Shown here: positions 18,656 to 52,047 of the stretch, piece by piece
How the letters are laid out: every line of letters begins with the position of its first letter
How positions within the stretch are numbered: the first letter of the stretch is position 1
Assembly (NCBI GenBank): GCA_000597885.1
Contig: CP004371.1
Span: 4,617,001-4,681,000 of the forward strand
From: Flammeovirgaceae bacterium 311
Lineage (GTDB): Bacteria > Bacteroidota > Bacteroidia > Cytophagales > Cyclobacteriaceae
Direction of reading: 5' to 3'
DNA length: 64,000 bases
Notes under the pieces: generated by a model
The model's input: the letters and a program-made list of their open reading frames with translations, nothing else
What the model was told of the DNA's origin: nothing
Databases searched by the model: none
Translations under genes and position numbers: made by a program

Positions 18656-18663
18656 TATCTTTG
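18656..18663 (+). promoter_or_regulatory. -7 promoter element of the btuB transcript
   Basis: TATCTTTG, an exact TAnnTTTG, begins 14 bases before the riboswitch. The expected transcription start near 18670 coincides with the first paired bases of the riboswitch. Confidence 0.65.
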
Positions 18664-18669
18664 CGCCAG

Positions 18670-18852
18670 ATTATGGTTCTGGCAGGGCATTCGCCCTTCG
18701 CCGGATGAAAAGGGAATCCCGTGCAAATCGGGAGCTGTCCCCGCAACTGTAAGCGTTATTAAACCTGCTGCCAAAACCACAGGCCACTGTTCCGGAGCAA
18801 TCTGAAATGGGAAGGCCGTGCAGCAGGAACGCAAGCCAGGAGACCTGCCATG
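18670..18852 (+). promoter_or_regulatory. Cobalamin riboswitch
   Basis: The core elements are present in order: GGGAATCCCGTG with GGGAGCTGTCCCCGCAACTG (paired core), the long variable arm with CTGCTGCC and GCAGCAGG, the B12 box region AGGCCACTGT (18781-18790), GAAGGC and the closing GCAAGCCAGGAGACCTGCC (18830-18849). It lies 130 bases before the GTG start of btuB. After it, GTGAAAGG (18876-18883) can pair imperfectly with CCTTTCTCAC (about 18919-18928), a possible expression-platform hairpin without a T run. Binding of adenosylcobalamin should reduce btuB and btuG-like expression. Confidence 0.95.
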
Positions 18853-18981
18853 ATTCTAAACTTCAAGGCTTTCGGGTGAAAGGCTGAGAAAATGCGCTGA
18901 TGCCTTTTCGCGTCCTTGCCTTTCTCACGTTCTTACAACCGCATGCTTTGTATTAAATCATGGATTTAATCTGGCTATTGC

Positions 18982-24723: not shown

Positions 24724-25752
24724 TCAGGAGTTATTAACGCTTGTTTCGGCACCAAAATTACCCTTAAAAACAGAAAATAAGAAACGGGCTGCGCCAACAG
24801 CACCGGTATTGCCGGCCATTACCTGTTGTTCCAGTTGTGTTCTATGCTGAGCCACAGCGGGATGACTCCAAAAATGCTGCTTCAGCATATCTTCTATGGC
24901 TGTATGCATCCAGCTTAGATTTTGTTCCTGCCTCCGGTGTTCAAAAAATCCTTTCAGGCGGGTGTGCTCCTCATACTGGCAAATCATGTGCCAGATTGCT
25001 TCCAGTCCTTCATTGGATATAGCAGAACAGCTCAGTACCTTAGGAATCCAGCCGCTGGGGGTAGGAGGGAACAGGTGCAGGGCATTTCTGTAAGCAGCCT
25101 GAGCCTGTTTGGCATGCATTTTATTATCGCCATCAGCTTTGGTAATGGCCAGGCCATCGGCCATTTCCATGATGCCTTTTTTTATACCCTGCAGCTCATC
25201 GCCGGCACCCGCCAGCATGAGCAGCAGGAAAAAATCTACCATGTTGCGAACAGCCGTTTCGCTCTGGCCAACACCAACGGTTTCAATAAAGATCACCTCA
25301 AAACCGGCTGCTTCACAAAGGAGCATGGCCTCGCGGGTGCGGGCGGCTACACCACCCAGCGCAGTGCCGGCAGCAGAGGGGCGTATGTATGCCAGCGGAT
25401 TGTGCGATAGCTGTTCCATACGGGTTTTATCGCCCATAATACTGCCACCGCTGCGCTGGCTGCTGGGGTCTATGGCCAGTACAGCCAGTTTTTTGCCAAG
25501 CCCCGTCAGGTAGGTGCCAAAGCTTTCTATAAAAGTGCTTTTACCAACCCCCGGCACTCCTGTTATGCCAATGCGAACAGACTGGCCGGTATGGGGTAAG
25601 ATAGCATCCATCACCTCCCGGGCAAGATGCTGGTCTGCAGGCAGGCTGCTTTCTACCAGGGTAATAGCACGGCTTAGCACCAGCCGGTCGCCCGCCAGTA
25701 TGCCTTTTATATAAGCTTTGGGAGTTAAACGGGATCGGCGCTTGCTGTTCAT
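24724..25752 (-). CDS. meaB: Methylmalonyl-CoA mutase GTPase chaperone MeaB (ArgK family)
   Basis: 342 residues from ATG 25752 (an upstream in-frame ATG at 25782 is possible). G3E-type GTPase: Walker A GVPGVGKST, the MeaB signature DPSSQRSGGSIMGDKTRM (18 residues), switch region ETVGVGQSE, and TKAD as the guanine-specificity motif. It guards adenosylcobalamin loading and repair of MutAB. It is separated from mutAB by 13 kb but lies in the middle of the B12 uptake genes. Old databases call it an arginine/lysine transport ATPase, which is misleading. Confidence 0.95.
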   Translation of the reverse strand: MNSKRRSRLTPKAYIKGILAGDRLVLSRAITLVESSLPADQHLAREVMDAILPHTGQSVRIGITGVPGVGKSTFIESFGTYLTGLGKKLAVLAIDPSSQRSGGSIMGDKTRMEQLSHNPLAYIRPSAAGTALGGVAARTREAMLLCEAAGFEVIFIETVGVGQSETAVRNMVDFFLLLMLAGAGDELQGIKKGIMEMADGLAITKADGDNKMHAKQAQAAYRNALHLFPPTPSGWIPKVLSCSAISNEGLEAIWHMICQYEEHTRLKGFFEHRRQEQNLSWMHTAIEDMLKQHFWSHPAVAQHRTQLEQQVMAGNTGAVGAARFLFSVFKGNFGAETSVNNS

Positions 25753-25833
25753 TAGGCTAAAACTAGGGATATGGTGGCACAATCACAATGTATTTGCGTT
25801 GCAGCCCTACCATTCCCTGCTTACCTTAGCCCC

Positions 25834-27024
25834 ATGAAACGGACCTTTGCAGCAGCCGGGCGTTGCCTGATCACGCCCCTTCTACTAGCTTTTACACTTA
25901 CTTACTGGTCTTGCAGGCCCAATAGCACTGAAAGAGAGAACACTGAAACAAACATAAATTCAGCAGCCTGGCAGAGTACTCCCATTCAGTATGCAAAAAC
26001 TTTTGAACTGGAGTACCGGGAGGGCTATAAACTAATCCATGTAAAGCAGCCTTATCCCGGCGCTACCAGGCCCTATACATACCTGCTGCTGCCTCACGGT
26101 CAGCCCCAGCCCGATTCTGTTGAAGCCGATGCCGTGGTGCGGATTCCGGTTCAGCGCATCATCAGCCTTAGCACCACCCATCTGCCTGCCCTTGATATGC
26201 TTGGGGAGAGCAACAAGCTGACTGGTTTTGCACAGTCCGAATTTATTACCAGCCCCGCCCAGCGCCTCCGGCTGGAGCAGGGCGAGCTTACCGACATTGG
26301 CAGCACCCAAGGGCTTAGCCCCGAGCAGATCCTCTCCCTGCAGCCCGACCTCATCATGGCCTATGGCATGGGCCCCGACGATGGCACACTGCAGGTACTG
26401 CACCGCACAGGCGTGCCCGTGCTTCTAAATGCAGATTTTCTGGAGAACAACCCCCTGGGCCGGGCAGAGTGGATAAAATTTACGGCAGCCCTCCTGAACA
26501 GGGAGAAAGAAGCAGATTCAGTATTTAACCAGATTGTGCATCGCTACGATTCCCTCACAGCTTTAACCAAAGATGTAGCGCAGCGCCCGGAGGTGTTTAG
26601 CGGCATTGTGTACGGCGATATCTGGTATATGCCTGGCGGCAGGAGCTGGGCAGCCACATTTCTGGCCGATGCCGGTGCCAATTACCTGTGGGGCGAAACA
26701 GCAGAAAGCGGCAGCGTGCCCCTAAGTTTAGAGCAAGTATTTGCCAAAGCCCACGATGCCCCCTTCTGGATCAATACCGCCGACTTCAGCTCTTTACAGG
26801 CCATTGCCGCTGCCGACGAGCGTTACAAGCGCTTCAGGGCCTGGCAGCAGGGGCAGGTCTATACCTACATCAACAAAATAAGCCCCACCGGCGGCAATGA
26901 ATACCTGGAGCTGGGCTATGCCCGCCCCGATATGGTGCTGGCCGATCTGATTAAGATTCTGCACCCGGAGCTGTTGCCAAAGCATGAGCTGTATTTTTAT
27001 AAACAATTACCAAAGAACAAGTAG
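25834..27024 (+). CDS. btuF: ABC transporter substrate-binding lipoprotein, BtuF-like
   Basis: 396 residues from ATG 25834; the longer ORF from GTG 25771 would overlap meaB upstream and hide the signal. Signal with lipobox-like YWSC. Periplasmic-binding (type III) fold: RIISLSTTHLPALDMLGE, SPEQILSLQPDLIMAY, GGRSWAATFLADAGANYLWG, and the ending GYARPDMVLADLIKILHPEL (20 residues) typical of Bacteroidota haem/B12/siderophore binding proteins. B12 is inferred from the btuB, btuG-like and meaB neighbours; a siderophore or haem substrate is not excluded. Confidence 0.8.
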   Translation: MKRTFAAAGRCLITPLLLAFTLTYWSCRPNSTERENTETNINSAAWQSTPIQYAKTFELEYREGYKLIHVKQPYPGATRPYTYLLLPHGQPQPDSVEADAVVRIPVQRIISLSTTHLPALDMLGESNKLTGFAQSEFITSPAQRLRLEQGELTDIGSTQGLSPEQILSLQPDLIMAYGMGPDDGTLQVLHRTGVPVLLNADFLENNPLGRAEWIKFTAALLNREKEADSVFNQIVHRYDSLTALTKDVAQRPEVFSGIVYGDIWYMPGGRSWAATFLADAGANYLWGETAESGSVPLSLEQVFAKAHDAPFWINTADFSSLQAIAAADERYKRFRAWQQGQVYTYINKISPTGGNEYLELGYARPDMVLADLIKILHPELLPKHELYFYKQLPKNK

Positions 27025-27131
27025 TAGAAACCATTCTATAGGAAAGCTCAGCCAGAATCTTTTGGTAAAGCTTAGGTGCGATTTTCCGGCGGCTTTTGCC
27101 CTCTGCCTGCTATTCACTATTTTGCCGGCCG

Positions 27132-28184
27132 ATGCAATCTCTTCAACCACTTCTCTGGATGCCGAAAGGCTGGGGCTGGCGCCTGCTGTTGCTCGTGCTG
27201 GCGCTGGCGCTGCTGTTTGTGGTAGATCTCAGTCTGGGGGCTGTTGCCATTCCTTATAAGTCCATTGTGAAGATTCTCACAGGTACACCTTCAGAAAACA
27301 GGGTGTGGGAGCAGATCGTGTGGGAGTTTCGCCTGCCTAAAGCCTTAACAGCACTGGCAGCAGGCAGTGCCCTGGCGGTATCGGGCCTGCAGATGCAAAC
27401 CTTGTTTCGCAATCCGCTGGCGGGTCCTTTTGTGCTGGGCATTAGCTCAGGCGCAAGCCTGGGAGTAGCGTTTTTGCTCATGGCCGGGAGTATAGGCTGG
27501 CTGATGGTACCGGAATGGATTCCCTGGCTTACTGCCGGAGCAGCTGCGCTGGGTGCTGCAGGGGTGCTGGTGCTTATTTTTCTGGCGGCCCTGCGCCTGC
27601 AGGATAGCATGGCCCTGCTAATACTGGGCCTGATGGTGGGCAGCCTGGCCGGGGCCGTGGTCAGTGTGCTGCAGTTTTACAGCGGGGCAGAGAAAGTGCA
27701 GGCCTATCTTATCTGGACCTTTGGTAGCCTGGGGGGGGTAACCTGGCCCGAGCTGCAGGTGGTAATACCCGTTGTGGTGGTGGGGCTTGTGCTGGCACAG
27801 GCGCTGGCAAAGCCGCTGAATGCCCTGCTGCTGGGGGAGCGTTATGCCCATAGCGTGGGCGTGTCTATGAGTAGGGTACGGCCGCTTATTCTGCTAAGTA
27901 CAAGTTTGCTTGCCGGAAGTATTACTGCTTTTTGCGGGCCTATTGCTTTTGTAGGGCTTGCTGTGCCGCATTTATGCAGGCTGCTGTTTCATATATCTGA
28001 TCACCGTTTGCTGTTGCCCGTGGTCATGCTGGGGGGTGCTATTTTGCTTCTCCTATGCGATATACTAGCAAATATACTGGCAGCGGGCGGTGCCCTGCCG
28101 CTCAATGCCATCACCACCCTCTTTGGCGCGCCGGTGGTGCTGTGGCTTATTCTGAGGCAGCGGGCAATTGGTAAAATGTTTTAA
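27132..28184 (+). CDS. btuC: FecCD-family permease, BtuC-like
   Basis: 350 residues from ATG 27132. Hydrophobic throughout with about ten membrane segments. Family landmarks: SGLQMQTLFRNPLAGPFVLG (20 residues), GISSGASLG, FCGPIAFVGLAVPHLCRL and the ending FGAPVVLWLILRQR. It is the channel of a type II importer for corrinoids or iron chelates. It lies between the binding protein (107 bases upstream) and the ATPase (1 base downstream). Confidence 0.9.
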   Translation: MQSLQPLLWMPKGWGWRLLLLVLALALLFVVDLSLGAVAIPYKSIVKILTGTPSENRVWEQIVWEFRLPKALTALAAGSALAVSGLQMQTLFRNPLAGPFVLGISSGASLGVAFLLMAGSIGWLMVPEWIPWLTAGAAALGAAGVLVLIFLAALRLQDSMALLILGLMVGSLAGAVVSVLQFYSGAEKVQAYLIWTFGSLGGVTWPELQVVIPVVVVGLVLAQALAKPLNALLLGERYAHSVGVSMSRVRPLILLSTSLLAGSITAFCGPIAFVGLAVPHLCRLLFHISDHRLLLPVVMLGGAILLLLCDILANILAAGGALPLNAITTLFGAPVVLWLILRQRAIGKMF

Positions 28185-28185
28185 A

Positions 28186-29250
28186 ATGAAAGCAGTACTG
28201 GAGGCCCATAATCTTAGCATCGGCTACCGCTACCGGCAGGAAACCCTGGTGCGGGCCGGGATTGAGCTGGCGCTGGAGCCCGGCAGGCTGGTTTGCCTGA
28301 TGGGCCCTAATGGTGCCGGCAAATCTACCCTGCTGCGTACGCTGGCGGGGGTGCAATTGCCACTGGGCGGAGAGCTGCTGCTGCAGGGGGTGCCTATCGA
28401 AAAGCTTTCGCAGCAGGAAAAAGCCCGGGCCATCAGTTTAGTGCTCACCGATCCGGTACATTCGGCAAATCTGCGGGTGCTGGAGGTAGTGCAGCTGGGG
28501 CGTTACCCACATACAGGCTGGTTTGGCAGCATGGGGGAGGTAGACAGAAAAGCAGTGGAGAAAGCGCTGGACGATACCGAAACCCGCCACCTGGCCGACC
28601 GCAAGCTCTACACCCTAAGCGATGGTCAGCGCCAAAAGGTGCTCATTGCGCGGGCAATGGCGCAGGGTGGGCAGCTGCTCCTGCTGGATGAACCCACAGC
28701 CCACCTCGACCTGGTACACCGCATCCAAATTATGCACCTGCTTAGAGGAGTGGCACAGGAGCAGCAAAAGGCAGTGGTGGTGGCTACCCACGAGCTTGAC
28801 CTTGCCCTGCAAACTGCCGATCGCCTACTGCTCATGCCTCACAATGCGGGCGATCCTATGCTCGAAGGTATGCCCGAAGACCTGGTGCTGAACGGATCCC
28901 TGGAGCAGGCTTTTAGCCGGGAGCCTTTTAAATTCGATGTACAGACAGGCCGCTTTTACCAGCCGCTGCCACAAAAAGCCAGTGTGCTGCTGAGAGGCCC
29001 GGAACCAGCCCGTTACTGGACAGAGCAGGTACTTCGCCGCCATGGGATAGTTGTGGCAGGCAGTCCTGTGACAACTGGTGCTGTGGCAACATCTGCATCA
29101 GCAGCCGATGCTGCGGCTGCTGATGCCATAGCCACCATTGAGGTGCAGCAGAAAGCCGTGGGCTGGATGTGGCACTACCAGCATGGACTCTTTGAGCAGC
29201 AGTTCTTTTCCCTGGCAGGACTGCTGAAGGAGCTATGCAAGCGGTATTAA
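28186..29250 (+). CDS. btuD: ABC ATPase, BtuD-like, with C-terminal extension
   Basis: 354 residues from ATG 28186, one base after the btuC stop. Walker A GPNGAGKST (40-48), signature LSDGQRQK, Walker B LLLLDEPTAHLD, H-loop ATHELD. The ATPase ends near residue 260. A further 95 residues form an extension with LLRGPEPARYWTEQVLRRHG, an Ala-rich linker (about 300-320) and an end with aromatic residues (GWMWHYQHG). Related transporters in this phylum can carry such a tail, as I recall; its role is unknown. It may regulate the importer or bind a ligand. Confidence 0.88.
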   Translation: MKAVLEAHNLSIGYRYRQETLVRAGIELALEPGRLVCLMGPNGAGKSTLLRTLAGVQLPLGGELLLQGVPIEKLSQQEKARAISLVLTDPVHSANLRVLEVVQLGRYPHTGWFGSMGEVDRKAVEKALDDTETRHLADRKLYTLSDGQRQKVLIARAMAQGGQLLLLDEPTAHLDLVHRIQIMHLLRGVAQEQQKAVVVATHELDLALQTADRLLLMPHNAGDPMLEGMPEDLVLNGSLEQAFSREPFKFDVQTGRFYQPLPQKASVLLRGPEPARYWTEQVLRRHGIVVAGSPVTTGAVATSASAADAAAADAIATIEVQQKAVGWMWHYQHGLFEQQFFSLAGLLKELCKRY

Positions 29251-29307: not shown

Positions 29308-30630
29308 ATGAAACACGTGGTCATCATTGGTAATGGCATTGCAGGGATCACTGCAGCGCGGCACATCCGCAAAGGCAGCGATTACCGCATTACTGTTATC
29401 TCCGGCGAGAGCGACCACTTTTACTCCAGAACTGCCCTGATGTACCTCTACATGGGCCAAATGGAATACCACCACCTAAAGCCTTACGAAGACTGGTTCT
29501 GGCCCAAAAACAGGATTGAGCTGGTAAAGGACTGGGTCGAAAAGGTAGAGGTGGAGCAGCAGCAGCTGATACTGCGCAATGGAGAGCCCATTCCTTATGA
29601 TGAACTCATTATTGCAGCAGGATCCCGCTGGCGAAGGGGCGGCTGGCCCGGCGAAGGTGCCAAAAGCGTGCATGGGCTCTACGGGCTGCAGGATCTGGAG
29701 GCAATAGAGGCCTCTACGGCAGGCATTGAAAAGGCGGTGGTAGTTGGAGGGGGCCTGATTGGCGTGGAACTGGCCGAAATGCTGCACAGCCGGGGCATAC
29801 CTGTAAGCCTGCTGGTACGGGAAAAAGGTTACTGGGCCAGTGTATTACCTCCCGAAGAAGCCACTCTTGTTGGGGAGCACCTAAAGAAACATCATATTGA
29901 TCTTCGCTTCAATACAAGTCTGGAAGAAGTACAGCAGGATGCAGCAGGCCGTGTGCAGGCCATAGTGACAGGTGACGGGGAGAAGATCGCCTGCCAGTTT
30001 CTGGGCATTACCATTGGGGTGGAGCCAAACATAGCTTTTCTGCAGGGCAGTGGCATAGAAACAGATAAAGGTGTGCTGGTAGATGAATATTTCAGAACGA
30101 GCGTTAGAGGGGTGTATGCCATAGGCGATTGTGTGCAGTACCGCAAGCCACCACCAGGCCGCAAGCCGGTGGAGCAGGTATGGTATACCGGGCGTGAGCA
30201 TGGGCTGCTGGCGGCAAAAAACATTTGTGGCAAACCAGCTGCTTATAAGCCTGGTCCCTGGTTCAATTCAGCAAAGTTTTTCGATGTGGAGTACCAGGTA
30301 TACGGCGATGTGCCCGCAAGGCTTCCGGAAGGGTGGGATTGGTTTTACTGGCAGCACCCCCGGAAAGATCAGGCTCTAAGGCTGGTTTGGGAGCAGGAAA
30401 GTGGAAAATTCAGAGGCGTAAATCTTCTGGGAATCCGCTACCGCCAGGAGGTATGTGAGCAATGGATTATCAGTGGTACTAAAATAGAGGAAGTAGTGAC
30501 TCAGCTCCACCAGGCTAATTTCGATCCTGAATTTCATAATAAGTATGAAGAGGAGATCAAGACTGCTTTTACTGAACAAACGGGTAGAACTGTACATGGG
30601 CGAAAAAAGCGATGGTGGGTATTTGGGTAA
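29308..30630 (+). CDS. NAD(P)/FAD-dependent oxidoreductase
   Basis: 440 residues from ATG 29308. Pyridine nucleotide-disulfide oxidoreductase fold: FAD GxGxxG at VVIIGNGIAG (4-13), NAD(P) motif VVVGGGLIGVELAE, and the second FAD motif GVYAIGDC. No redox-active CxxC disulfide pair is seen, so it is closer to NirB- or rubredoxin-reductase-like proteins than to thioredoxin reductases. A C-terminal 120-residue domain (about 315-440) is of unknown role. The next gene codes for a membrane ferredoxin protein, so electron transfer from NAD(P)H to that partner is plausible but inferred. Confidence 0.85.
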   Translation: MKHVVIIGNGIAGITAARHIRKGSDYRITVISGESDHFYSRTALMYLYMGQMEYHHLKPYEDWFWPKNRIELVKDWVEKVEVEQQQLILRNGEPIPYDELIIAAGSRWRRGGWPGEGAKSVHGLYGLQDLEAIEASTAGIEKAVVVGGGLIGVELAEMLHSRGIPVSLLVREKGYWASVLPPEEATLVGEHLKKHHIDLRFNTSLEEVQQDAAGRVQAIVTGDGEKIACQFLGITIGVEPNIAFLQGSGIETDKGVLVDEYFRTSVRGVYAIGDCVQYRKPPPGRKPVEQVWYTGREHGLLAAKNICGKPAAYKPGPWFNSAKFFDVEYQVYGDVPARLPEGWDWFYWQHPRKDQALRLVWEQESGKFRGVNLLGIRYRQEVCEQWIISGTKIEEVVTQLHQANFDPEFHNKYEEEIKTAFTEQTGRTVHGRKKRWWVFG

Positions 30631-30780
30631 TGCTTCATAGATTAGAATGATTAAAAGGAGCAGCTTGTTGTGAATGTAATCCCGGCATCAGTTTTCAGCA
30701 GGAGTCTATCATCAGGAATAAATAAAACGTAATTTTCCCTCTGTAAACAGGAGGTCTGCTTTGGGCAAGGAAGAGGAAAA

Positions 30781-32337
30781 ATGCCAACTATAATACGCGA
30801 TACACGCTTTACAAAACTTAAGAAGCACCCTGTACAGCAGGTAGGCCTAGTTTTACTCTTGTTGGGCTTTGCGGTGCTCATTGGCATGCTGAGCCTGGGC
30901 AATTATAAGCTGACTCCTTCGATTGTAGAGCAATCAGTGGCAGATAGTGCCCATCAGGCAGTGTTGAAATCGTATCTGGAACCTCTGTACGACAAACCCA
31001 TAGACAGCGACTGGGCTCTCTCTGGTGTTTTGGATGAAGCTTTTGAAAATGCCAACGAACAGCTGGGGGATAAGCCAATAGATGATTACTGGGGCCGTAC
31101 TTATAAAACCTATCTGATCAAATACAGTACCGTGGGCTTGCCTGCCGAGCGGCCGCTCCTGCTCTTCTGGCTTAGCATAGGCCTGGGCATTTTGGGTGGC
31201 CTACTCTATATTTTTCCAAAGCTGCAGCTCCTTCCGGGCATTAAAAACAACCATATTTTTCACAGCGCCACCACCAACAGGGGCTGGGTTGGCTGGCTGC
31301 TGGGCTCATTTCTTATCCTGTTCTACATCCTGCTCTATTTCTTTCCCTACTACATCACCACCTGGATGCTCATTTGCGATCCGCTTGCCTATTGGCTAAA
31401 GGGAAGCGGGGCTACGGAGTGGTTCTTTTACGGACTGCTTTACACCCTGGCCATTCTGGTGATGGGGGTGCGCATGATGATCAAATACCGCCACAGTAAG
31501 TATCATAAACTTCGCACCGGCAGTGTTATGTTCTTTCAGCTGGCTTTTGCTTTCCTGATCCCAGAATTTCTGGTAGCCCTGAATAAGCCCTATTACGACC
31601 TGAAGAACATCTGGCCTCTTAATTACGACCTGTTTTTCGAATATAAGATCGAAGAGTTTCTGAGCAGTGGCACCCTGGGCATGTTTATGCTGATATGGGG
31701 CATTGCCCTGGTGGTGCTGGGTGTTCCACTCATGACGTACTTCTACGGCAAGCGCTGGTACTGCAGCTGGGTGTGTGGCTGCGGCGGCCTTGCCGAAACG
31801 CTGGGAGATCCTTACCGCCAGCTTTCCGATAAAAGTTTAAAAGCATGGAAAGTTGAGCGCTGGATGGTACACAGTGTACTGGTACTGGCCGTTGTGATGA
31901 CGGCTGCCGTGCTTATTACCTTCTTTACTGGTAAAAGCAGCCTGCTGGGAATAAGCTCTTATGACCTGCGGTATTGGTATGGTTTTGGCATCGGTTCTAT
32001 CTTTGCCGGGGTGGTGGGTACTGGTTTTTACCCCCTGATGGGTAACCGCGTGTGGTGCCGCTACGGTTGTCCGCTGGCAGCTTATATTGGTATTGTACAG
32101 CGATTTAAATCCAGATTTCGTATTACTACCAATGGCGGACAGTGCATCAGCTGTGGCAACTGTTCTACCTATTGCGAAATGGGCATCGACGTACGCTTTT
32201 ACGCCCAGCGTGGCCAGAATGTAGTGCGGGCCAGCTGTGTAGGCTGTGGTGTGTGCGCTTCCGTATGCCCCAGGGGCGTGCTAAAGCTGGAAGACAGAGG
32301 AGATGGCAAAGCCAGGTTTGGCGAAGTGAAGTTTTAG
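30781..32337 (+). CDS. NapH/CcoG-like polyferredoxin membrane protein
   Basis: 518 residues. About six membrane segments; an N-terminal soluble loop after the first segment. Cysteine motifs of the NapH/NosR type lie at the membrane face: RWYCSWVCGCGG and RVWCRYGCPLAA. The C-terminus has two ferredoxin motifs, CISCGNCSTYC and CVGCGVCASVCP, for two [4Fe-4S] clusters. It should carry electrons across or along the membrane. A good ribosome site (AGGAAGAGG) precedes the ATG. The gene lies 150 bases after the FAD oxidoreductase and 100 before a glycosyltransferase; none of the nitrate or nitrous oxide genes usually linked to NapH or NosR is near. Confidence 0.88.
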   Translation: MPTIIRDTRFTKLKKHPVQQVGLVLLLLGFAVLIGMLSLGNYKLTPSIVEQSVADSAHQAVLKSYLEPLYDKPIDSDWALSGVLDEAFENANEQLGDKPIDDYWGRTYKTYLIKYSTVGLPAERPLLLFWLSIGLGILGGLLYIFPKLQLLPGIKNNHIFHSATTNRGWVGWLLGSFLILFYILLYFFPYYITTWMLICDPLAYWLKGSGATEWFFYGLLYTLAILVMGVRMMIKYRHSKYHKLRTGSVMFFQLAFAFLIPEFLVALNKPYYDLKNIWPLNYDLFFEYKIEEFLSSGTLGMFMLIWGIALVVLGVPLMTYFYGKRWYCSWVCGCGGLAETLGDPYRQLSDKSLKAWKVERWMVHSVLVLAVVMTAAVLITFFTGKSSLLGISSYDLRYWYGFGIGSIFAGVVGTGFYPLMGNRVWCRYGCPLAAYIGIVQRFKSRFRITTNGGQCISCGNCSTYCEMGIDVRFYAQRGQNVVRASCVGCGVCASVCPRGVLKLEDRGDGKARFGEVKF

Positions 32338-32437
32338 TTTGCAGCCACCAATCTGCCTTCTTGATAGCCTAAAAAAATTAAACAGCAGCAGATTAGAAAA
32401 ATTATACAGTCTAAGTAAGACTGAAGATGAATTGAGG

Positions 32438-33274
32438 ATGAGTAAAATGAACAGTACAGCAGGCAATCTGGCAATACCTCTCATTGAGGGGCGCAGGGGA
32501 GAGAAACTACGCCGACTACCTCTACAGCAGTTAGAAGAGAATGAGCTATCACCTTTAGATTCGGCGACTACCGATAATGAAACATTCCCTACTATTGCCG
32601 TCGTAATCCCTGCTCATGATGAAGCAGAGGGCATTCTGAAAGTAATACAGGCCTTACCAAAGAATTGGGTGCATGAAGTAGTGGTAACAGACAATGCCTC
32701 TAATGACGGTACTGCCGGAGTAGCAGAAGCCCTGGGTGCCACCGTGTTGCACGAAGACCGCAAAGGATACGGCTGGGCCTGCCTGAAGGGGCTGGAATAC
32801 CTGTCGCAGAAGCCTGAACAACCTGACATTGTTGTTTTTCTGGATGCCGATTATTCTGATTTTCCCGAAGAGCTGCCCCTTTTGGTAGCACCTATCCTGG
32901 AAGGTAAAGCCGACCTGGTAATTGGCTCCCGCGCAATGGGCAAGCGGGAAAAAGGCTCCTTAACACCGCAGCAGATATTTGGAAACTGGCTGGCTACGCG
33001 CCTGCTCCGCCTGATCTATGGTGCCTGCTTTACAGACCTGGGGCCTTTCCGCGCAGTAAGATGGGATGCGCTGCAGAAAATAAATATGCAGGATAAAACG
33101 TATGGCTGGACGGTAGAAATGCAGCTAAAAGCTGCTAAACTTGGGCTGCGCGCTACCGAAGTGCCGGTCCGTTACCGCCGCCGCATCGGGCATTCTAAAA
33201 TAAGTGGTACGGTAAAAGGGGTTTTAGGAGCGGGTTATAAAATCTTATGGACCCTCTTTCGCTATAGCCGATGA
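32438..33274 (+). CDS. GT2 glycosyltransferase, polyprenyl-phosphate type (DPM1-like)
   Basis: 278 residues from ATG 32438; the frame extends upstream to a TTG at 32339, and ATG 32447 is also possible. GT-A fold: AVVIPAHDEAEGI, TDNASNDGTAG, and the metal-binding DADYSD. LIYGACFTDLGPFRAVRWDAL and the ending HSKISGTVKG resemble dolichyl/undecaprenyl-phosphate sugar synthases. No membrane segments at the C-terminus, so it is a soluble single-domain form. The stop overlaps the start of the next gene by 4 bases. Confidence 0.88.
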   Translation: MSKMNSTAGNLAIPLIEGRRGEKLRRLPLQQLEENELSPLDSATTDNETFPTIAVVIPAHDEAEGILKVIQALPKNWVHEVVVTDNASNDGTAGVAEALGATVLHEDRKGYGWACLKGLEYLSQKPEQPDIVVFLDADYSDFPEELPLLVAPILEGKADLVIGSRAMGKREKGSLTPQQIFGNWLATRLLRLIYGACFTDLGPFRAVRWDALQKINMQDKTYGWTVEMQLKAAKLGLRATEVPVRYRRRIGHSKISGTVKGVLGAGYKILWTLFRYSR

Positions 33275-34722
33275 GCTGGCTGATTGCTATCTTATACTGT
33301 AGTAGTTTACTCTTTCTCTTCCTGTTCAGCCTGGGGCAGCTGCACCTGACCTGGCATTACCTGCGCCGCCTGCGTAAAGGAGTGGATAGACCATATACCC
33401 TGCCAGATGAGCTGCCGGTGGTAACCATACAACTCCCCATCTACAACGAACGTTATGTAGCCGGGCGCCTGCTGGAGGCTGTTGCCCGCCTGGATTATCC
33501 TGCTGATAAACTGCAGATACAGGTACTGGATGACTCCACCGATGATACTGTCAGCTTGATTGCTGCAAAAGTAGAAGCATTACAACAGCAGGGGCTGTGG
33601 ATAGAGCAAGTGCGCCGCTCTGAGCGGCATGGCTTTAAAGCAGGTGCCCTGCAATGGGGGCTGCAAGGGGCAAAGGGACGGTTCATTGCTATTTTCGATG
33701 CTGATTTTCTGCCTCCTGCTGATTTCCTCCTGAAAACGCTACCCCATTTTCAGGTGCCGGAGGTAGGCTTGGTGCAAACCCGCTGGGGCCACCTGAACCG
33801 TACCTATAACCTGCTCACTAAACTGCAGGCCTTTGGGCTCGATGCTCATTTTACTGTTGAGCAGGGCGGCCGCAGCGAAGCCGGCAGCTACATTAATTTT
33901 AACGGTACCGGCGGCATCTGGCGGCGGAGCTGCATAGAAGATGCCGGCGGCTGGAGTGCCGATACCCTTACCGAAGACCTGGACCTTAGCTATCGGGCAC
34001 AAATGCGGGGCTGGAAGTTTCTATACCTTGAGGAAGTGGAAAGCCCGGCAGAACTTCCTGTTGTAATGCCGGCCGTTCGTTCGCAGCATTTCCGATGGAA
34101 TAAGGGCGCAGCAGAATGTGCCCGTAAAAACCTGCTGAACTCCCTTCGCAGTCCCGGCAATTTATTCAATAAGCTGCATGCTTTCTTTCACCTCACCAAC
34201 AGCAGCATCTTTATAATAATACTCATAGCAGCTTTATTAAGCGTGCCCATGCTTTTTGTGAAGGAATCACTTCCAGAGTTTAGACAGATTTTCTATTTTG
34301 GGAGAGTGTTCTTTTTCGGGTTTCTGGCAATTGGCTTTTTTTACTGGGTAGCGAGTCGGCGATTGCATCCAAAAAAAGGCGCGCTCTATTTCTGGAGCCT
34401 GTTTCCGCCTTTTCTGGTGGTTTCACTTGGTTTATCTGCGCATAATACCCTGGCAGTTGCAGAAGGCTGGCTAGGAAAGAAATCGCCTTTTTTGCGTACG
34501 CCTAAGTTTAACATAACAGGAAAAACCGGAGGCTGGAAGGGTAATGTATACCTGCATCGGCAATTCAGCTGGATGAGCATGCTGGAAACCATACTGGCCC
34601 TGTACTTCGTATTTGGCATAGGTGCCGGTTTGTATTTGCATGATTACAGCCTGCTGTTGTTCCATGCCATGCTGGCCATTGGTTTTGTACTGGTAGTTTA
34701 CTATACCTTAAAGGGTAAATAG
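33271..34722 (+). CDS. Processive-type GT2 membrane glycosyltransferase (cellulose synthase-like)
   Basis: 483 residues. One N-terminal membrane helix, a GT2 catalytic domain (about 45-290) with the complete D,D,D,QxxRW set: DDSTDD, DADFL, TEDLDL and QHFRWNKG, then four or five C-terminal membrane segments. This is the layout of cellulose synthase and glucomannan synthase-like enzymes. No PilZ domain and no BcsB partner, so cellulose itself is unlikely; a beta-linked glycan or glycolipid is more plausible. Translation is coupled to the upstream GT2 gene (ATGA overlap). Confidence 0.88.
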   Translation: MSWLIAILYCSSLLFLFLFSLGQLHLTWHYLRRLRKGVDRPYTLPDELPVVTIQLPIYNERYVAGRLLEAVARLDYPADKLQIQVLDDSTDDTVSLIAAKVEALQQQGLWIEQVRRSERHGFKAGALQWGLQGAKGRFIAIFDADFLPPADFLLKTLPHFQVPEVGLVQTRWGHLNRTYNLLTKLQAFGLDAHFTVEQGGRSEAGSYINFNGTGGIWRRSCIEDAGGWSADTLTEDLDLSYRAQMRGWKFLYLEEVESPAELPVVMPAVRSQHFRWNKGAAECARKNLLNSLRSPGNLFNKLHAFFHLTNSSIFIIILIAALLSVPMLFVKESLPEFRQIFYFGRVFFFGFLAIGFFYWVASRRLHPKKGALYFWSLFPPFLVVSLGLSAHNTLAVAEGWLGKKSPFLRTPKFNITGKTGGWKGNVYLHRQFSWMSMLETILALYFVFGIGAGLYLHDYSLLLFHAMLAIGFVLVVYYTLKGK

Positions 34723-34838
34723 CCACTCCTGAAAATTTAATTGTAATGATGTTTGCTGACCATGCAGATGAGCAGGTCTGATGCCGGAAATGTTGTCTGC
34801 TTGGTTGTGCTCATAGTTTTCAAAATAAACCTTGAAAT

Positions 34839-36332
34839 TTGCTCCATACACTTACTTCCATAAGATTGCGCTTTACCATTGCCACCTTGGTGGCCGGGGT
34901 GGTGTATTTAGTGGTGTTAGCACTTATGGTATATGGCGTGGAGCGTTATCAGTCTGGTCCTTTACTGGTTGGCTATGGTTTGTTGTTCGGTTTATATTTG
35001 ATGTTAGTATGGGGTGCAAAAGAATTGCCCTTCTGGTCTTACCTGCTACTGGCCGCTGTAGCACGTTTGCTGCTGCTGCCATCCATGCCCTCACTTTCCG
35101 ATGATTTTTACCGCTTTTTATGGGATGGCCATCTGCTGGTGGAGGGGCTGCATCCTTTTTCTCACTCGCCCGAGTGGTACATGCAGGCAGGAGAGCCCGA
35201 GGTACAAAATATCAGTCCCGAACTTTACAAAGGCCTCAATTCCAAATCTTATTTTACCATTTATCCGCCCCTGGCACAGGCCTTATTTGCTTTTGCAGCA
35301 TGGATAGGGGGGAGTAGCATTCAGGCTGGCGTAGTGCTGTTGCGCCTGCCTCTTTTGCTGGCTGAGTGTGGTACAGTCTGGCTGCTGCTAAAGCTGCTCA
35401 GGCAGTATGGGCTGCCCCGGCGCAGGGTGCTGCTGTATGCCTTAAATCCGCTGGTGGTACTGGAAATAACAGGCAACCTGCACCTGGAGGCATTTGCTGT
35501 TTTCTTTCTGCTGCTGCTGGTGTGGAGCCTGGGAAAAATTGATAAGGGGGAGGCCATGGCGGGCAGCGCAAAAGCCGGCTGGGCGGCAGTTGCTTTTGCC
35601 GGTGCAGTAGCCAGTAAATTATGGCCATTACTTTTGGGGCCGTATTTGCTCCTGAAGTTAGGCGGGAACAAACGATGGCAGTGGCTGCTGCTCTCTTCAG
35701 GATTATTGATCGTGCTCTTTGTGCCCCTCTTTGGTAAGCCCCTGCTGGAAGGAATGCTGGAAAGTATTTCACTCTATTACCAGCGCTTTGAGTTCAATGC
35801 CAGCCTCTATTATCTGCTGCGCGGATTAGGGTACTTAATATTTGGCTTCAACCTGATTGTACAGCTGGGGCCTATGCTGGCTTTAGTGGCTGCGGGACTG
35901 ATCCTGTTTTTCAGCAGCCGTTCTGTAAAGAGAGGCTGGGGTATTCCTGAAACCTTGATGCTCCTTTACGGGTTGTTTTTACTCTGTGCTACTACGGTGC
36001 ATCCGTGGTATGTACTCCCCCTGCTAGCTTTGATGCCTTTGACACATTTACGCTTCTCTCTTGCCTGGAGTGGGCTTGTTTTTCTCACTTACGCCGGCTA
36101 TACACAAACTGGCTATGAGGAGCCTTTGGCCCTGGTGGCATTGGAGTATGCTGTGGTGATACTGGTTTTATGCTGGGATTTGAAGAAACAAAAAGAATTT
36201 CAGACAACTCCGGCAAATCATGCACCAGCATCTGCAGTGCACCAAAGCTTAAGAATGGGAGTGCCAGAACGGGGAGTATCTCTGCCTGCTGTAAAAGAAC
36301 CGGTTAAAGCACCCCTCAGGAAAAAAATCTAG
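34839..36332 (+). CDS. Multi-spanning GT-C glycosyltransferase (mannosyltransferase-like)
   Basis: 497 residues with about eleven membrane segments. The first periplasmic loop holds the acidic motif SDDFYRFLWDG, typical of polyprenyl-phosphate sugar dependent GT-C enzymes, followed by the YPPLAQALFA region and ALNPLVVLEITGNLHLEAFA (20 residues). The cytosolic C-terminal 60 residues are hydrophilic. An in-frame TGA at 34833 leaves TTG 34839 as the first possible start; no ATG or GTG is near, so the start is unusual. It probably uses the lipid-linked sugar made by the DPM1-like neighbour, which is inference. Confidence 0.8.
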   Translation: MLHTLTSIRLRFTIATLVAGVVYLVVLALMVYGVERYQSGPLLVGYGLLFGLYLMLVWGAKELPFWSYLLLAAVARLLLLPSMPSLSDDFYRFLWDGHLLVEGLHPFSHSPEWYMQAGEPEVQNISPELYKGLNSKSYFTIYPPLAQALFAFAAWIGGSSIQAGVVLLRLPLLLAECGTVWLLLKLLRQYGLPRRRVLLYALNPLVVLEITGNLHLEAFAVFFLLLLVWSLGKIDKGEAMAGSAKAGWAAVAFAGAVASKLWPLLLGPYLLLKLGGNKRWQWLLLSSGLLIVLFVPLFGKPLLEGMLESISLYYQRFEFNASLYYLLRGLGYLIFGFNLIVQLGPMLALVAAGLILFFSSRSVKRGWGIPETLMLLYGLFLLCATTVHPWYVLPLLALMPLTHLRFSLAWSGLVFLTYAGYTQTGYEEPLALVALEYAVVILVLCWDLKKQKEFQTTPANHAPASAVHQSLRMGVPERGVSLPAVKEPVKAPLRKKI

Positions 36333-36359
36333 TACCTATTAATAATAACTGAATCAAAG

Positions 36360-36695
36360 ATGGAAAACACATACTATAACCCTGCAGACCTGGCGAAATT
36401 TGGAAACATAGCTGAGTTCAGTCCCGACCTTGCCAAAAAGTTTTTCGATTACTACGGAGATGTATTTAAAGAAGGGGAACTCTCCGTGCGGGAAAAGTCG
36501 CTCATTGCCCTGGCCGTAGCCCATGCCATTCAGTGCCCCTACTGCATTGATGCCTATACCACCGATGGTCTGGAAAAGGGTGCCTCCGAAGGACAGATGA
36601 TGGAAGCCATTCATGTGGCTGCTGCCATCCGTGGAGGGGCCTCCCTGGTGCACGGCGTGCAAATGATGAATAAGGTAAAGGAAATAACGATGTAA
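36360..36695 (+). CDS. AhpD-like protein of arsenosugar-type loci
   Basis: 111 residues, the size of a carboxymuconolactone decarboxylase domain. The active-site pair is present in HAIQCPYCIDAYT (CxxC), with the surrounding EKSLIALAVAH and MMEAIHVAAAIRGGASLVHG (20 residues). It matches the small peroxidase-like protein that is often encoded next to ArsS. It could reduce peroxides or act as a thiol redox partner of the radical SAM enzyme. It lies 28 bases after the GT-C gene. Confidence 0.88.
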   Translation: MENTYYNPADLAKFGNIAEFSPDLAKKFFDYYGDVFKEGELSVREKSLIALAVAHAIQCPYCIDAYTTDGLEKGASEGQMMEAIHVAAAIRGGASLVHGVQMMNKVKEITM

Positions 36696-36843
36696 AATTA
36701 GTATTGGGTATTTAGTATGGAGACTGTGCTGGGAGCGCATCCTTCACTTATATATTTTACCTGATGCAAGCATTAATTTGTTTAACCTTAATGCCGGCAC
36801 CCGACTCTGTCTCAATGCTCAATACCTAATACCAACTACTAAA

Positions 36844-37905
36844 ATGAAGTCACTTAAACGACAAGAGCATAAATTTTCCGATTCTTTTATACAGCTTGAA
36901 GTGTTGCAGGCAGCGCGTCCTGGTGGCGGTAAATTTGAACGCTTCGAAGATAAACTTGATACAATCGGGCTGTTTCCGCTAAGGCCTACCCAGCTGGAGA
37001 TTTTTCAGGTAAATGTTGGAAAAATGTGCAACCAGACCTGTAAGCACTGCCATGTGGATGCCGGGCCGGATCGCAAAGAGATCATGACCCGGGAAACCAT
37101 GCAGCAATGCCTTGAGGCACTGGACAAGGCAGATGTAGCCGGCTTTCCCGTAAAAACTATTGATTTAACAGGAGGAGCTCCTGAAATGAACCCCCACTTT
37201 CGCTGGTTTGTACAGGAGCTGCACAAGCGGGGCAAGCATGTAATAGTACGCTGCAACCTCACCATTATACTGGCCAATCCAAAATACCATGATCTTCCCC
37301 AGTTTTTCAAGGCGCATGGGGTAGAGGTGGTCAGCTCACTGCCCCATTTTTCTGCCAGGCGTACCGATGCGCAACGGGGTGATGGCGTGTTTGAAAAGTC
37401 GATCAAAGCCCTGCAGATGCTCAATGCAGCGGGCTATGGTCAGGAGGGCAGCGGGCTCCAGTTGCACCTGGTCTATAACCCGGCTGGTGCTTTTCTGCCA
37501 GGTGCACAGGTTTCGCTGGAGAAAGAGTTTAAGCAGCAGCTAAAACGCCAGTTCAATATAGATTTTAACAGCCTGTTTGTTATAACCAACCTGCCCATCA
37601 GCCGTTTTTTGGATTACCTGGTGCAAAGCGGCAACTATGAGGGTTACATGGAAAAGCTGGTAAACAGCTTTAACCCGGCTGCCGCAGCCAACGTGATGTG
37701 CCGCAATACCATTTCCGTAGGTTGGGACGGCCAGCTTTATGACTGCGACTTTAACCAGATGCTGGACCTGACGGTAGTAGGAGCCCCCCGCCACATTAAA
37801 GATTTTGATGTAGCACAACTCAACCAGCGCGATATCGTTCTGAACCAGCACTGCTACGGCTGCACTGCCGGCGCCGGGAGTAGTTGTGGCGGGCAGACTG
37901 CATAA
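36844..37905 (+). CDS. arsS: Radical SAM enzyme ArsS (arsenosugar biosynthesis)
   Basis: 353 residues from ATG 36844. The radical SAM cluster motif is CNQTCKHCH (Cys62, Cys66, Cys69), followed by the glycine-rich DLTGGAPEM. The C-terminal half has the family ending CYGCTAGAGSSCGG with a CxxC and a further Cys. In some members the last motif carries selenocysteine; here all are ordinary Cys codons. Characterised ArsS links an adenosyl group to a methylated arsenic compound. There is no arsM methyltransferase in the window, so the substrate here is open. Confidence 0.9.
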   Translation: MKSLKRQEHKFSDSFIQLEVLQAARPGGGKFERFEDKLDTIGLFPLRPTQLEIFQVNVGKMCNQTCKHCHVDAGPDRKEIMTRETMQQCLEALDKADVAGFPVKTIDLTGGAPEMNPHFRWFVQELHKRGKHVIVRCNLTIILANPKYHDLPQFFKAHGVEVVSSLPHFSARRTDAQRGDGVFEKSIKALQMLNAAGYGQEGSGLQLHLVYNPAGAFLPGAQVSLEKEFKQQLKRQFNIDFNSLFVITNLPISRFLDYLVQSGNYEGYMEKLVNSFNPAAAANVMCRNTISVGWDGQLYDCDFNQMLDLTVVGAPRHIKDFDVAQLNQRDIVLNQHCYGCTAGAGSSCGGQTA

Positions 37906-37912
37906 GTTTACC

Positions 37913-38524
37913 ATGACCCCAAACCACCTGATCATATTTGTAAAAAACCGCATCCCTGGCCGTACAAAAACCAGGCTGGCTCAATCCATAGGTGATGAAG
38001 AAGCGCTGCAGGTGTATGATGAGCTATTAGTCCATACCCATGCAGCAACAATAGGCCTTAATATCTCAAAATGGGTATTTTTTTCTGATTACCTGGAAGA
38101 AAATAATAGCCTGTGGCAACAGGGATATCAATTACAGGTACAGCAGGGAAAAGACCTGGGGGAAAGAATGCAGCTGGCTTTTGAAAAATGTTTCTCCCAA
38201 GGGGCACAGCGCGTATGCATTATCGGGTCAGATTGTTATGAACTGGAAACAGAACATCTGAATAAAGCCTATGATGCGCTCCGCCAAAAGGATGTGGTGC
38301 TTGGGCCCGCCGCAGACGGAGGTTACTATTTGCTAGGCTTGCAGGAGCAGCAGCCCGAACTTTTTCAGCATAAAATCTGGAGTACACCTGAGGTATTGGC
38401 GGACACGCTGGATGATTGTGAGCGGCTTGGTTTATCTGTACAGCAGCTCCCACAGTTGCACGATCTGGATAATATTCAGGATCTTAAACGCTACCGGCAA
38501 AAGCAGAATAATAAGTCTCGTTAG
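37913..38524 (+). CDS. TIGR04282-type transferase linked to ArsS
   Basis: 203 residues from ATG 37913, 7 bases after arsS; an in-frame GTG at 37886 would overlap arsS. GT-A nucleotidyl/glycosyltransferase-like fold: FVKNRIPGRTKTRLA, GKDLGERMQLAFE, CIIGSDCYEL and LGPAADGGYYLLGL. This matches the rSAM/selenodomain-associated transferase 1 family that accompanies ArsS in many genomes. It probably uses an activated sugar or nucleotide on the ArsS product. Confidence 0.9.
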   Translation: MTPNHLIIFVKNRIPGRTKTRLAQSIGDEEALQVYDELLVHTHAATIGLNISKWVFFSDYLEENNSLWQQGYQLQVQQGKDLGERMQLAFEKCFSQGAQRVCIIGSDCYELETEHLNKAYDALRQKDVVLGPAADGGYYLLGLQEQQPELFQHKIWSTPEVLADTLDDCERLGLSVQQLPQLHDLDNIQDLKRYRQKQNNKSR

Positions 38525-38652: not shown

Positions 38653-39513
38653 ATGGCTCGAAAAAAGCTAGCTATCAGTGAACTGTGGGTATATCCCATA
38701 AAATCGTTGGGAGGTGTATCTTTACGAGAGGCACCACTTACTCCGCGCGGCCTGCAATGGGACCGGCGCTGGATGCTGCTGGATGCAGAAGGAAATTTTC
38801 TGACACAGAGACAGTATCCCAAGATGGCCTTGCTTCAGGTAAGTCTGCACAACTATAGGCTGGAGGTAAATCATCGGGGTAAAAACCTGGCTCCTTTGCA
38901 GATTCCACTGCAGATGGAAGATACCGGAGAACATGTGCAGGCACCTGTTTGGGACGACAGCACCCTTGCCTGGTATGTGGGCAGGGGCTATGACCAATGG
39001 TTTAGTGAAGCATTGGAAATACAATGCCGGCTGGTGTACATGCCTGATGAAAGTGAGCGCACAGCCACTGGTAAATGGAGTGGACGGCAGCAGAAAGTCT
39101 CCTTTGCCGATGCATATCCTATTCTGCTGATCAGTCAGTCATCGCTCGATGACCTGAATTCCCGATTGAGGGAAACCATTCCCATGGATCGTTTTCGTCC
39201 TAATATCGTAGTGCGTGGAAGTGCTCCTTTTGCCGAAGACCAGTGGCACGAATTCTGGGTGGGCGATCTGCATTTCTGGGCAGAAAAGCCTTGTGCCCGC
39301 TGCACACTTACCACAATAGATCAGCTTACAGCAGAGAAAGGAAAGGAACCCCTGCAAACACTTTCCCGCTATCGCCGCTTGGGGTCAAAAGTAATTTTCG
39401 GGCAGAATATCCTAAGTGATACAAAGGGTATTTTACATGTTGGTGATGGGTTAGTGGTGAAAAGCTATAAGCCCGACCCTATGCATGCATCTCATGCTTC
39501 TCAAACCAAATAA
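38653..39513 (+). CDS. MOSC domain protein, YcbX-like
   Basis: 286 residues. An N-terminal beta-barrel MOSC_N part (SELWVYPIKSLGGVSL, RGLQWDRRWMLLD) is followed by a MOSC domain with RFRPNIVVRG and the conserved cysteine Cys214 in KPCARCTL. Such proteins bind molybdenum cofactor and, like YcbX and mARC, reduce N-hydroxylated compounds with an external electron donor. No ferredoxin domain is fused here. It has its own short upstream region with TTGACA and TATATTTTG near 38624-38649, so it may not belong to the arsS unit. Confidence 0.88.
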   Translation: MARKKLAISELWVYPIKSLGGVSLREAPLTPRGLQWDRRWMLLDAEGNFLTQRQYPKMALLQVSLHNYRLEVNHRGKNLAPLQIPLQMEDTGEHVQAPVWDDSTLAWYVGRGYDQWFSEALEIQCRLVYMPDESERTATGKWSGRQQKVSFADAYPILLISQSSLDDLNSRLRETIPMDRFRPNIVVRGSAPFAEDQWHEFWVGDLHFWAEKPCARCTLTTIDQLTAEKGKEPLQTLSRYRRLGSKVIFGQNILSDTKGILHVGDGLVVKSYKPDPMHASHASQTK

Positions 39514-51872: not shown

Positions 51873-52047
51873 ATATAGATTTTGGGCTTGGCTGAGCGTA
51901 ATGAAAATTTACATAACAGCTAAAGCCTGGCATCTGGCAGGTAAATTCTGGAAGCCAGCTATTACTTTCAGGGAGGCTCCTGCTACGAAAGAGAAAGATA
52001 TATGCTATGGGCTAAACAGGAAGGTAACAAGGGGGGGCATTAATTTT

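Follow-up and report, generated by a model that had tools for sequence, protein, structure and literature searches.

Gene content and arrangement of the locus

The window, i.e. the whole stretch of 64,000 nucleotides analysed here, comprises positions 4617001-4681000 of the single-contig, 6.67-Mb genome of Flammeovirgaceae bacterium 311. The system in question is a plus-strand run of eight open reading frames (ORFs) without internal stops at 29308-38524, in which a flavin adenine dinucleotide (FAD)-dependent oxidoreductase, a NapH-like polyferredoxin and three glycosyltransferases (GT2a, GT2b and GT-C) are followed by an AhpD-like protein, the arsenosugar radical S-adenosylmethionine (SAM) enzyme ArsS and a TIGR04282 protein (Table 1). 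All eight genes in a row and their domain names, as given in a preliminary description made from the letters alone, were upheld, and the gaps of at most about 150 bases with one ATGA overlap and one 7-base gap reported there correspond to measured values of 150, 100, -4 (ATGA), 116, 27, 148 and 7 bases at the chosen starts. Comparison with other Bacteroidota showed that the FAD-NapH-glycosyltransferase unit and the arsS module are linked but separable.

The AhpD-like protein (TIGR04169), ArsS (TIGR04167) and TIGR04282 are the known arsenosugar module, all beyond the curated cut-offs. ArsS carries its CX3CX2C motif as CNQTCKHC and is the only ArsS match in the genome at E 0.001; phmmer retrieved no PDB relative at E 0.01. 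Of the 42 scored ArsS loci, 40 have the TIGR04169 gene no more than 10 kb from ArsS. An arsenosugar-type ArsM (NF038099, 550.2 bits, cut-off 400) is encoded elsewhere in the genome, outside the cluster (C1:976854-977816), and a TIGR04283-like glycosyltransferase gene at C1:399758 reached 172.9 bits against a cut-off of 182. The first arsenosugar steps in Synechocystis are performed by ArsM and ArsS (PMC8552651), and arsenosugar synthesis involves adenosylation of arsenic by a radical SAM enzyme (PMC12159101); the label of an uncharacterised pathway in the preliminary description is thus not appropriate for the arsS part. The run resembles the set of arsenosugar genes recognised by NCBIfam (ArsM, ArsS, TIGR04169, TIGR04282 and TIGR04283) and the Synechocystis pair in its AhpD-like protein, ArsS and TIGR04282, but differs from them in that the FAD reductase, the NapH-like polyferredoxin, two further GT2 enzymes and the GT-C protein, which the models do not cover, are joined to it.

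The NapH-like protein shows a nearly invariant motif, GKRWYCSWVCGCGGLAET, in an alignment of 26 sequences, and two C-terminal CxxCxxCxxxC motifs, although its 62.6 bits do not reach the curated TIGR02163 cut-off of 213 bits. It is a membrane protein and shares with the NapH/MauN-type quinol-linked membrane ferredoxins the cysteine pairs ahead of two C-terminal 4Fe-4S motifs, but the TIGR02163 match is confined to residues 311-504, with a long N-terminal part ahead of it; its partner, moreover, is an FAD enzyme, to which the protein is even fused in two relatives (L141 and L142, see below). A NapH fold match was sought with Foldseek and rejected, as nothing meaningful was found (best E 0.85) with an AlphaFold model of pLDDT (predicted local distance difference test score) 70 and a poor C-terminus. 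FAD and NapH are a strict genomic pair: at E 1e-80 the FAD gene was present in 32 of 118 genomes of the order, among them all 31 with NapH; in 24 of these 31, the two genes are no more than 25 kb apart. Judged by their families, the two would form an NAD(P)H-fed membrane iron-sulfur chain.

GT2a is DPM1/AglJ-like by profile and probably a polyprenyl-phosphate sugar synthase, judged from its sequence, even if the cut-off of 325 bits for AglJ (TIGR04182, 124.7 bits) is not attained; likewise, GT2b falls short of the cut-off of 699 bits for the cellulose synthase CelA (TIGR03030, 99.8 bits). The GT-C protein gave no Pfam or NCBIfam match at E 0.01. Its family profile matches GPI mannosyltransferase 1 (E 1.9e-5) and the mannosyltransferase 9dm5 (E 0.0031), and its structural model (pLDDT 89.7) retrieved ALG3 (TMt 0.70), PimE, Pmt4 and PglB with Foldseek at probabilities of 0.92-1.00 and E-values of 0.003-0.16, the best E of all being only 0.0027. 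Among the 24 best PDB titles for this model, 22 name enzymes which we take to be members of the GT-C class, and the remaining two refer to a GPI transamidase and to a translocon complex. In a model of good quality, the protein is thus assigned to the GT-C fold superfamily, and its predicted fold makes it probably a user of a polyprenyl-phosphate-sugar donor. Together, the likeness of GT2a to DPM1/AglJ and of the GT-C protein to ALG3, GPI mannosyltransferase 1 and PimE recalls the polyprenyl- and dolichyl-phosphate sugar routes, from which both proteins differ in being too distant for any named family tested.

The TIGR04282 protein resembles CofC/FbiD-type guanylyltransferases in its match to PF01983 (E 5.9e-7) and a weak one of its family profile to the CofC-type structure 6bwg (E 0.4), but belongs to a family of its own, with 41.1 bits against a cut-off of 105 for TIGR03552. 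The profile also matched 3cgx, a putative nucleoside diphosphate (NDP)-sugar transferase (E 6.2e-51).

Table 1. Position and assignment of the genes of the run and of its neighbours in the window.
Feature	Position	Strand	Matches and remarks
FAD/NAD(P)H-dependent oxidoreductase (Pyr_redox_2)	29308..30630	+	PF07992 E 9.7e-54
NapH-like membrane polyferredoxin, 518 aa	30781..32337	+	TIGR02163 62.6 bits; Fer4_5, Fer4_21
GT2a, DPM1/AglJ-like glycosyltransferase	~32438..33274	+	PF00535 E 1.5e-20; TIGR04182 AglJ 124.7 bits
GT2b, cellulose-synthase-like membrane glycosyltransferase	33271..34722	+	PF13641 E 6.6e-23; TIGR03030 99.8 bits
GT-C fold glycosyltransferase	34839..36332	+	start uncertain; profile and model matches
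AhpD-like protein TIGR04169, CPYC motif	36360..36695	+	196.2 bits, cut-off 120
ArsS, arsenosugar radical SAM enzyme	~36844..37905	+	TIGR04167 448.5 bits, cut-off 300
TIGR04282 (DUF2064), CofC-like nucleotidyl/glycosyltransferase fold	37913..38524	+	207.7 bits, cut-off 134; PF09837, PF01983
Flank, not claimed as part: BtuF-like, FecCD permease, ABC ATPase (B12-type uptake)	25771..29250	+	
Flank, not claimed as part: MOSC-domain protein	38653..39513	+	PF03476/PF03473

Linkage of NapH and ArsS

Three overlapping samples were used: 118 genomes of the order, 296 of the phylum, and a set of named loci. Only strong hits were counted in the order, which kept 28 of the 36 genomes listed for ArsS and 31 of the 33 listed for NapH; matches of E 2.8e-5 to 6.2e-4 were dropped. 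The named NapH loci represent the best 80 of 588 relatives and hence lean to close relatives; many of them end at contig ends. ArsS was searched in 48 of the named genomes, drawn by eye from the 80 named loci with longer loci preferred. Linkage within 25 kb (NapH-ArsS and FAD-NapH) was counted in all genomes having both genes. Neighbours within 10 kb were counted in 78 named loci (L058-L135; L056 and L057 were left out as Cesiribacter) and in 42 ArsS loci, a set that excludes L007 (G115, second contig), L010 (G096) and L001, the locus of the window itself; counts of NapH, FAD and glycosyltransferase genes near ArsS in these 42 are biased upward, because several of the regions were fetched for a nearby NapH.

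NapH and ArsS were found within 25 kb of each other in 21 of the 65 genomes with both genes, distributed over seven families, against 0.76 expected by position in a flat 4.3-Mb genome. The order set alone, with the rounded size of each genome, gave 7 linked genomes of 22 against 0.29 expected. In the closest of all 21 pairs, the two genes are 432 bases apart on the same strand (G250). A longer and weaker form of NapH (153-212 bits) accounts for 10 of the 71 phylum genomes with NapH (four in family f35, three in f54 and one each in f53, f58 and f38). The 21 linked genomes include two of these ten, G136 and G178; without all ten, 19 of 58 genomes in six families are still linked. As a control, BtuF, FecCD, ABC, MOSC, GH3, Dxr and MeaB of the window were followed, none of which occurred within 10 kb of ArsS in the 42 other loci. 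Chance juxtaposition of the NapH-ArsS pair is ruled out by the 25-kb linkage and this control.

Several counts weigh against a single obligate system. NapH occurs without ArsS in 9 of 31 genomes of the order, 23 of 71 of the phylum and 16 of 48 named genomes, and ArsS without NapH in 6 of 28 and 73 of 121 genomes of order and phylum, respectively. The two genes were not within 25 kb in 44 of the 65 genomes with both, some of which are fragmented drafts. Within 10 kb of NapH, the 78 named loci presented GT2b in 47 and GT2a in 44 cases, but ArsS in only five. Relatedness moreover inflates all genome counts, so that seven families is the safer number. A strictly arsenic-specific system is ruled out as an absolute claim by the NapH genomes lacking ArsS.

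TIGR04282 as a shared partner

TIGR04282 passed its cut-off in 37 of the 118 order genomes, comprising all 28 with ArsS and 30 of the 31 with NapH, and in only one of the 81 with neither. The phylum sample gave the same picture, with TIGR04282 in 120 of 121 ArsS genomes and 70 of 71 NapH genomes (180 genomes at E 1e-20, 178 of which pass the cut-off). Nevertheless, ArsS and NapH are independent of each other among genomes with TIGR04282: 47 of 180 such genomes of the phylum (odds ratio 1.04) and 22 of 37 of the order (odds ratio 0.46) carry both. This also counts against a single obligate system. As TIGR04282 is common to ArsS and NapH genomes while these two are independent, the units go with a function of TIGR04282 and are not obligate partners of each other. 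The NCBI name 'arsenosugar glycosyltransferase' may be too narrow, because 60 of the 180 phylum genomes with TIGR04282 showed no ArsS. TIGR04282 with neither ArsS nor NapH was found in 37 of the 296 phylum genomes.

Gene order in related genomes

The nearest named relative among the best 80 is Cesiribacter sp. SM1 (L056), whose NapH is 94% identical and whose gene order is the same from MeaB to Dxr, followed by C. andamanensis (NapH 82%), where a short contig ends within GT2b and ArsS is located on another contig. Besides the window, Cesiribacter sp. SM1 alone showed this exact gene order, which was absent from Algoriphagus loci. What recurs is the five-gene unit FAD-NapH-GT2a-GT2b-GTC, often with rhodanese, DUF547 or TIGR04282. 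In the bacterium's own family (G035, G050 and G091), FAD-NapH-GT2b-GT2a-GTC is accompanied by a CRP-type regulator, rhodanese, DUF547 and probable lipoproteins, and arsS is missing from the 20-kb loci (L033, L037 and L039); of the three genomes, only G091 has an ArsS, on another contig. Named Algoriphagus loci likewise present the unit without arsenic genes nearby, and both cases speak against one fixed system. The genome of Algoriphagus kandeliae (L085), one of the 48 searched, gave no ArsS match. The preliminary description had made its one-pathway idea depend on the two parts being neighbours in relatives, which is borne out by the linkage in seven families and contradicted by the loci of the bacterium's own family.

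In L037 (12022-14141), L033, L039 and the named Algoriphagus loci, FAD-NapH is preceded by genes for a CRP/FNR-type regulator, for a rhodanese that is probably exported (NF045521) and for a DUF547 protein; the type of regulator hints at redox or oxygen control. A family of probable lipoproteins of about 300 amino acids lies between GT2a and GTC in Algoriphagus-type loci (L037:5916-6824) and beside TIGR04282 near ArsS in L006 (12954-13880); neither copy had a Pfam match, and that of L037 had no NCBIfam match. Rhodanese NF045521 was not found in the genome studied here. For fifteen such satellite proteins of relatives (DUF547, rhodanese, ArsM and others), tblastn found no match in the window at E 1e-3, with ArsS as a working positive control, and phmmer against the ORFs of the window yielded only GT2a and a short-chain dehydrogenase/reductase (SDR) gene at 51874-52764, both by superfamily.

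The most telling arrangement was found in family f35, where L141 and L142 display a tightly packed same-strand row. A frame of 830-839 amino acids unites a pyridine-nucleotide reductase domain with the NapH-type part, and a second one of 467-474 amino acids is, in the scanned copy of L142, a GT2 fused to DUF2064/TIGR04282; both frames (L141:6489-10401, L142:6476-10369) stand directly before DUF547, AhpD, ArsS and GT2a. In L143, L144, L147 and the metagenome-assembled genome (MAG) L102, AhpD, ArsS, TIGR04282, ArsM, DUF547 and FAD-NapH-GT2a-GT2b-GTC share one strand over about 20 kb, with TIGR04283 in L144, L147 and L102 and rhodanese in L147. The MAG L123 matches this up to GT2a, where its contig ends. 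Satellites are exchanged between the two parts, as genes for rhodanese and DUF547 adjoin ArsS in some genomes and FAD-NapH in others. A further region of about 18 kb (L017:1-17761) carries on both strands GTC, GT2a, FAD, NapH, GT2b, rhodanese, a PiT-like permease (named by eye), ArsM, DUF547, a TIGR04283-type glycosyltransferase, an epimerase, an SDR, an AhpD-region, ArsS and a MIP-type channel.

L133, L080, L108 and L091 show the order FAD-NapH-GT2a-GT2b-GTC-rhodanese-TIGR04282, which follows BtuF-FecCD-ABC in the first three. Where these four loci carry the rhodanese, the window and L056 carry AhpD-ArsS. This fits the idea that, in the lineage of Cesiribacter, AhpD-arsS either replaced the rhodanese or was inserted between GTC and TIGR04282.

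Flanking genes and transcription signals

The preliminary description let the run begin at 29308, a boundary that does not hold, as the BtuF/FecCD/ABC genes end 57 bases upstream on the same strand. Downstream of TIGR04282, the MOSC gene begins after 128 bases, also on the same strand. Within 10 kb of NapH, BtuF/FecCD/ABC were present in 6 and MOSC in 7 of the 78 named loci, and neither was seen within this distance of ArsS in the 42 scored loci; in relatives, the MOSC gene near NapH is mostly placed beyond TIGR04282. The window is rich in genes related to B12, with a cobalamin riboswitch (RF00174, 112.7 bits) at 18657-18866 before a TonB-receptor-like gene (18982-20889), BtuF/FecCD/ABC, a MeaB-like gene (24724-25782) and a methylmalonyl-CoA-mutase-like pair (7858-11842), the receptor, MeaB-like and mutase-like genes being named by eye.

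Some starts in the run are uncertain: the frame of GT2a is open from TTG 32339 and that of ArsS from TTG 36778. Between 26000 and 43000, 25 terminator-like sites were observed on both strands, against 19.0 ± 4.4 in shuffles. The sole plus-strand site clearly in a gap is a weak one of five pairs (30738-30754). The longest stem, of 11 pairs (34880-34904), falls right at the beginning of the GT-C ORF and could sit in a leader, since this ORF has other start codons up to 34926 and beyond. The claim that no intrinsic terminator interrupts the run is therefore no more than plausible. Matches to the Bacteroidota -7 motif, the consensus of which we take to be TANNTTTG, amounted to 60 in the window against 50.6 ± 7.1 in shuffles, with no exact match in any gap of the run; promoter motifs in the window thus gave no signal beyond chance.

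Discussion

The idea of a single pathway, put forward in the preliminary description, finds real comparative support short of proof: the linkage and the dense row with two fusions speak for it, and the frequent occurrence of NapH without ArsS marks the units as separable, so that it is partly supported. We lean, with some reserve, towards the explanation that the eight genes represent one version of a set whose members are linked across several families of Bacteroidota. In this set, the arsenosugar route would either feed a branch for membrane redox and polyprenyl-sugar glycosylation or lie next to it; this branch, separable as it is, probably builds a glycolipid. Gene content, linkage, shared partners, fusions and the GT-C-like fold of the model are the observed part of this explanation, and from sequence we infer all substrates and the order of reactions past ArsS. 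ArsM, encoded elsewhere in the genome, would provide a dimethylarsenical, to the arsenic of which ArsS would join the 5'-deoxyadenosyl group of SAM, as is known in print for the ArsS family. The CofC-like TIGR04282 enzyme would activate the arsenoribose or another sugar, GT2a would transfer the sugar to polyprenyl phosphate, GT2b would make a lipid or glycan acceptor, and the GT-C enzyme would move the sugar at the outer face of the inner membrane to yield a glycolipid, which in genomes with arsS may be an arsenosugar lipid. The FAD enzyme would pass electrons from NAD(P)H to the NapH-like iron-sulfur protein and so sustain a reductive step, be it arsenic reduction, priming of ArsS or a reduction on the lipid side. 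In its most far-reaching version, which we regard as doubtful, the set would be a dedicated arsenosugar-lipid assembly line of Bacteroidota, with arsenoribose from ArsM/ArsS, activation by TIGR04282, transfer by GT2a and GT-C to an acceptor in the lipids or the envelope, with polyprenyl phosphate as the carrier, and a needed reduction by an NADH-driven FAD-NapH membrane chain.

A serious though less probable alternative is that two independent systems merely adjoin each other, FAD-NapH-GT2a-GT2b-GTC-(rhodanese)-TIGR04282 making an arsenic-free glycolipid and AhpD-arsS having come between GT-C and TIGR04282 in the Cesiribacter lineage. The four loci with rhodanese in the place of AhpD-ArsS, the absence of ArsS from about a third of the NapH genomes and the independence of both genes within TIGR04282 genomes speak for this; against it stand the proximity of NapH and ArsS in six other families and the dense rows with fused genes in L141 and L142, which are hard to obtain by chance insertion. 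That FAD-NapH mainly supplies electrons to ArsS, with the glycosyltransferases as a separate system, appears improbable. In L136-L140 FAD-NapH is next to ArsS, and neither GT2b nor GTC was called there, GT2a being present in L136 only, where the matches of NapH and AhpD are 83 bases apart; but FAD-NapH also exists without ArsS and is more often neighboured by glycosyltransferase genes, and most ArsS genomes of the phylum (73 of 121) manage without NapH. An affiliation of FAD-NapH with the upstream B12 uptake genes in cobalamin reduction, all else being accidental, is very improbable, for despite their closeness here and in six named NapH loci, and despite the riboswitch, the remaining 72 named NapH loci (some of them truncated at contig ends) and the 42 ArsS loci showed none of these genes.

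In the portion of the open-access literature searched, no description of the extended cluster was found, by which its absence in print is not established, and named enzymes were encountered for the first arsenosugar steps only (ArsM and ArsS), none joining arsenoribose to glycerol or lipid. The FAD-NapH-GT2-GT2-GTC set together with TIGR04282, rhodanese and DUF547 hence offers a short and concrete list of candidate genes for the later steps, and the dedicated assembly line, if true, would account for those steps of bacterial arsenolipid synthesis that are still missing. The closeness of both gene sets in some distant relatives suggests that the arsenosugar genes and those for membrane redox and sugar-to-lipid transfer can work together.

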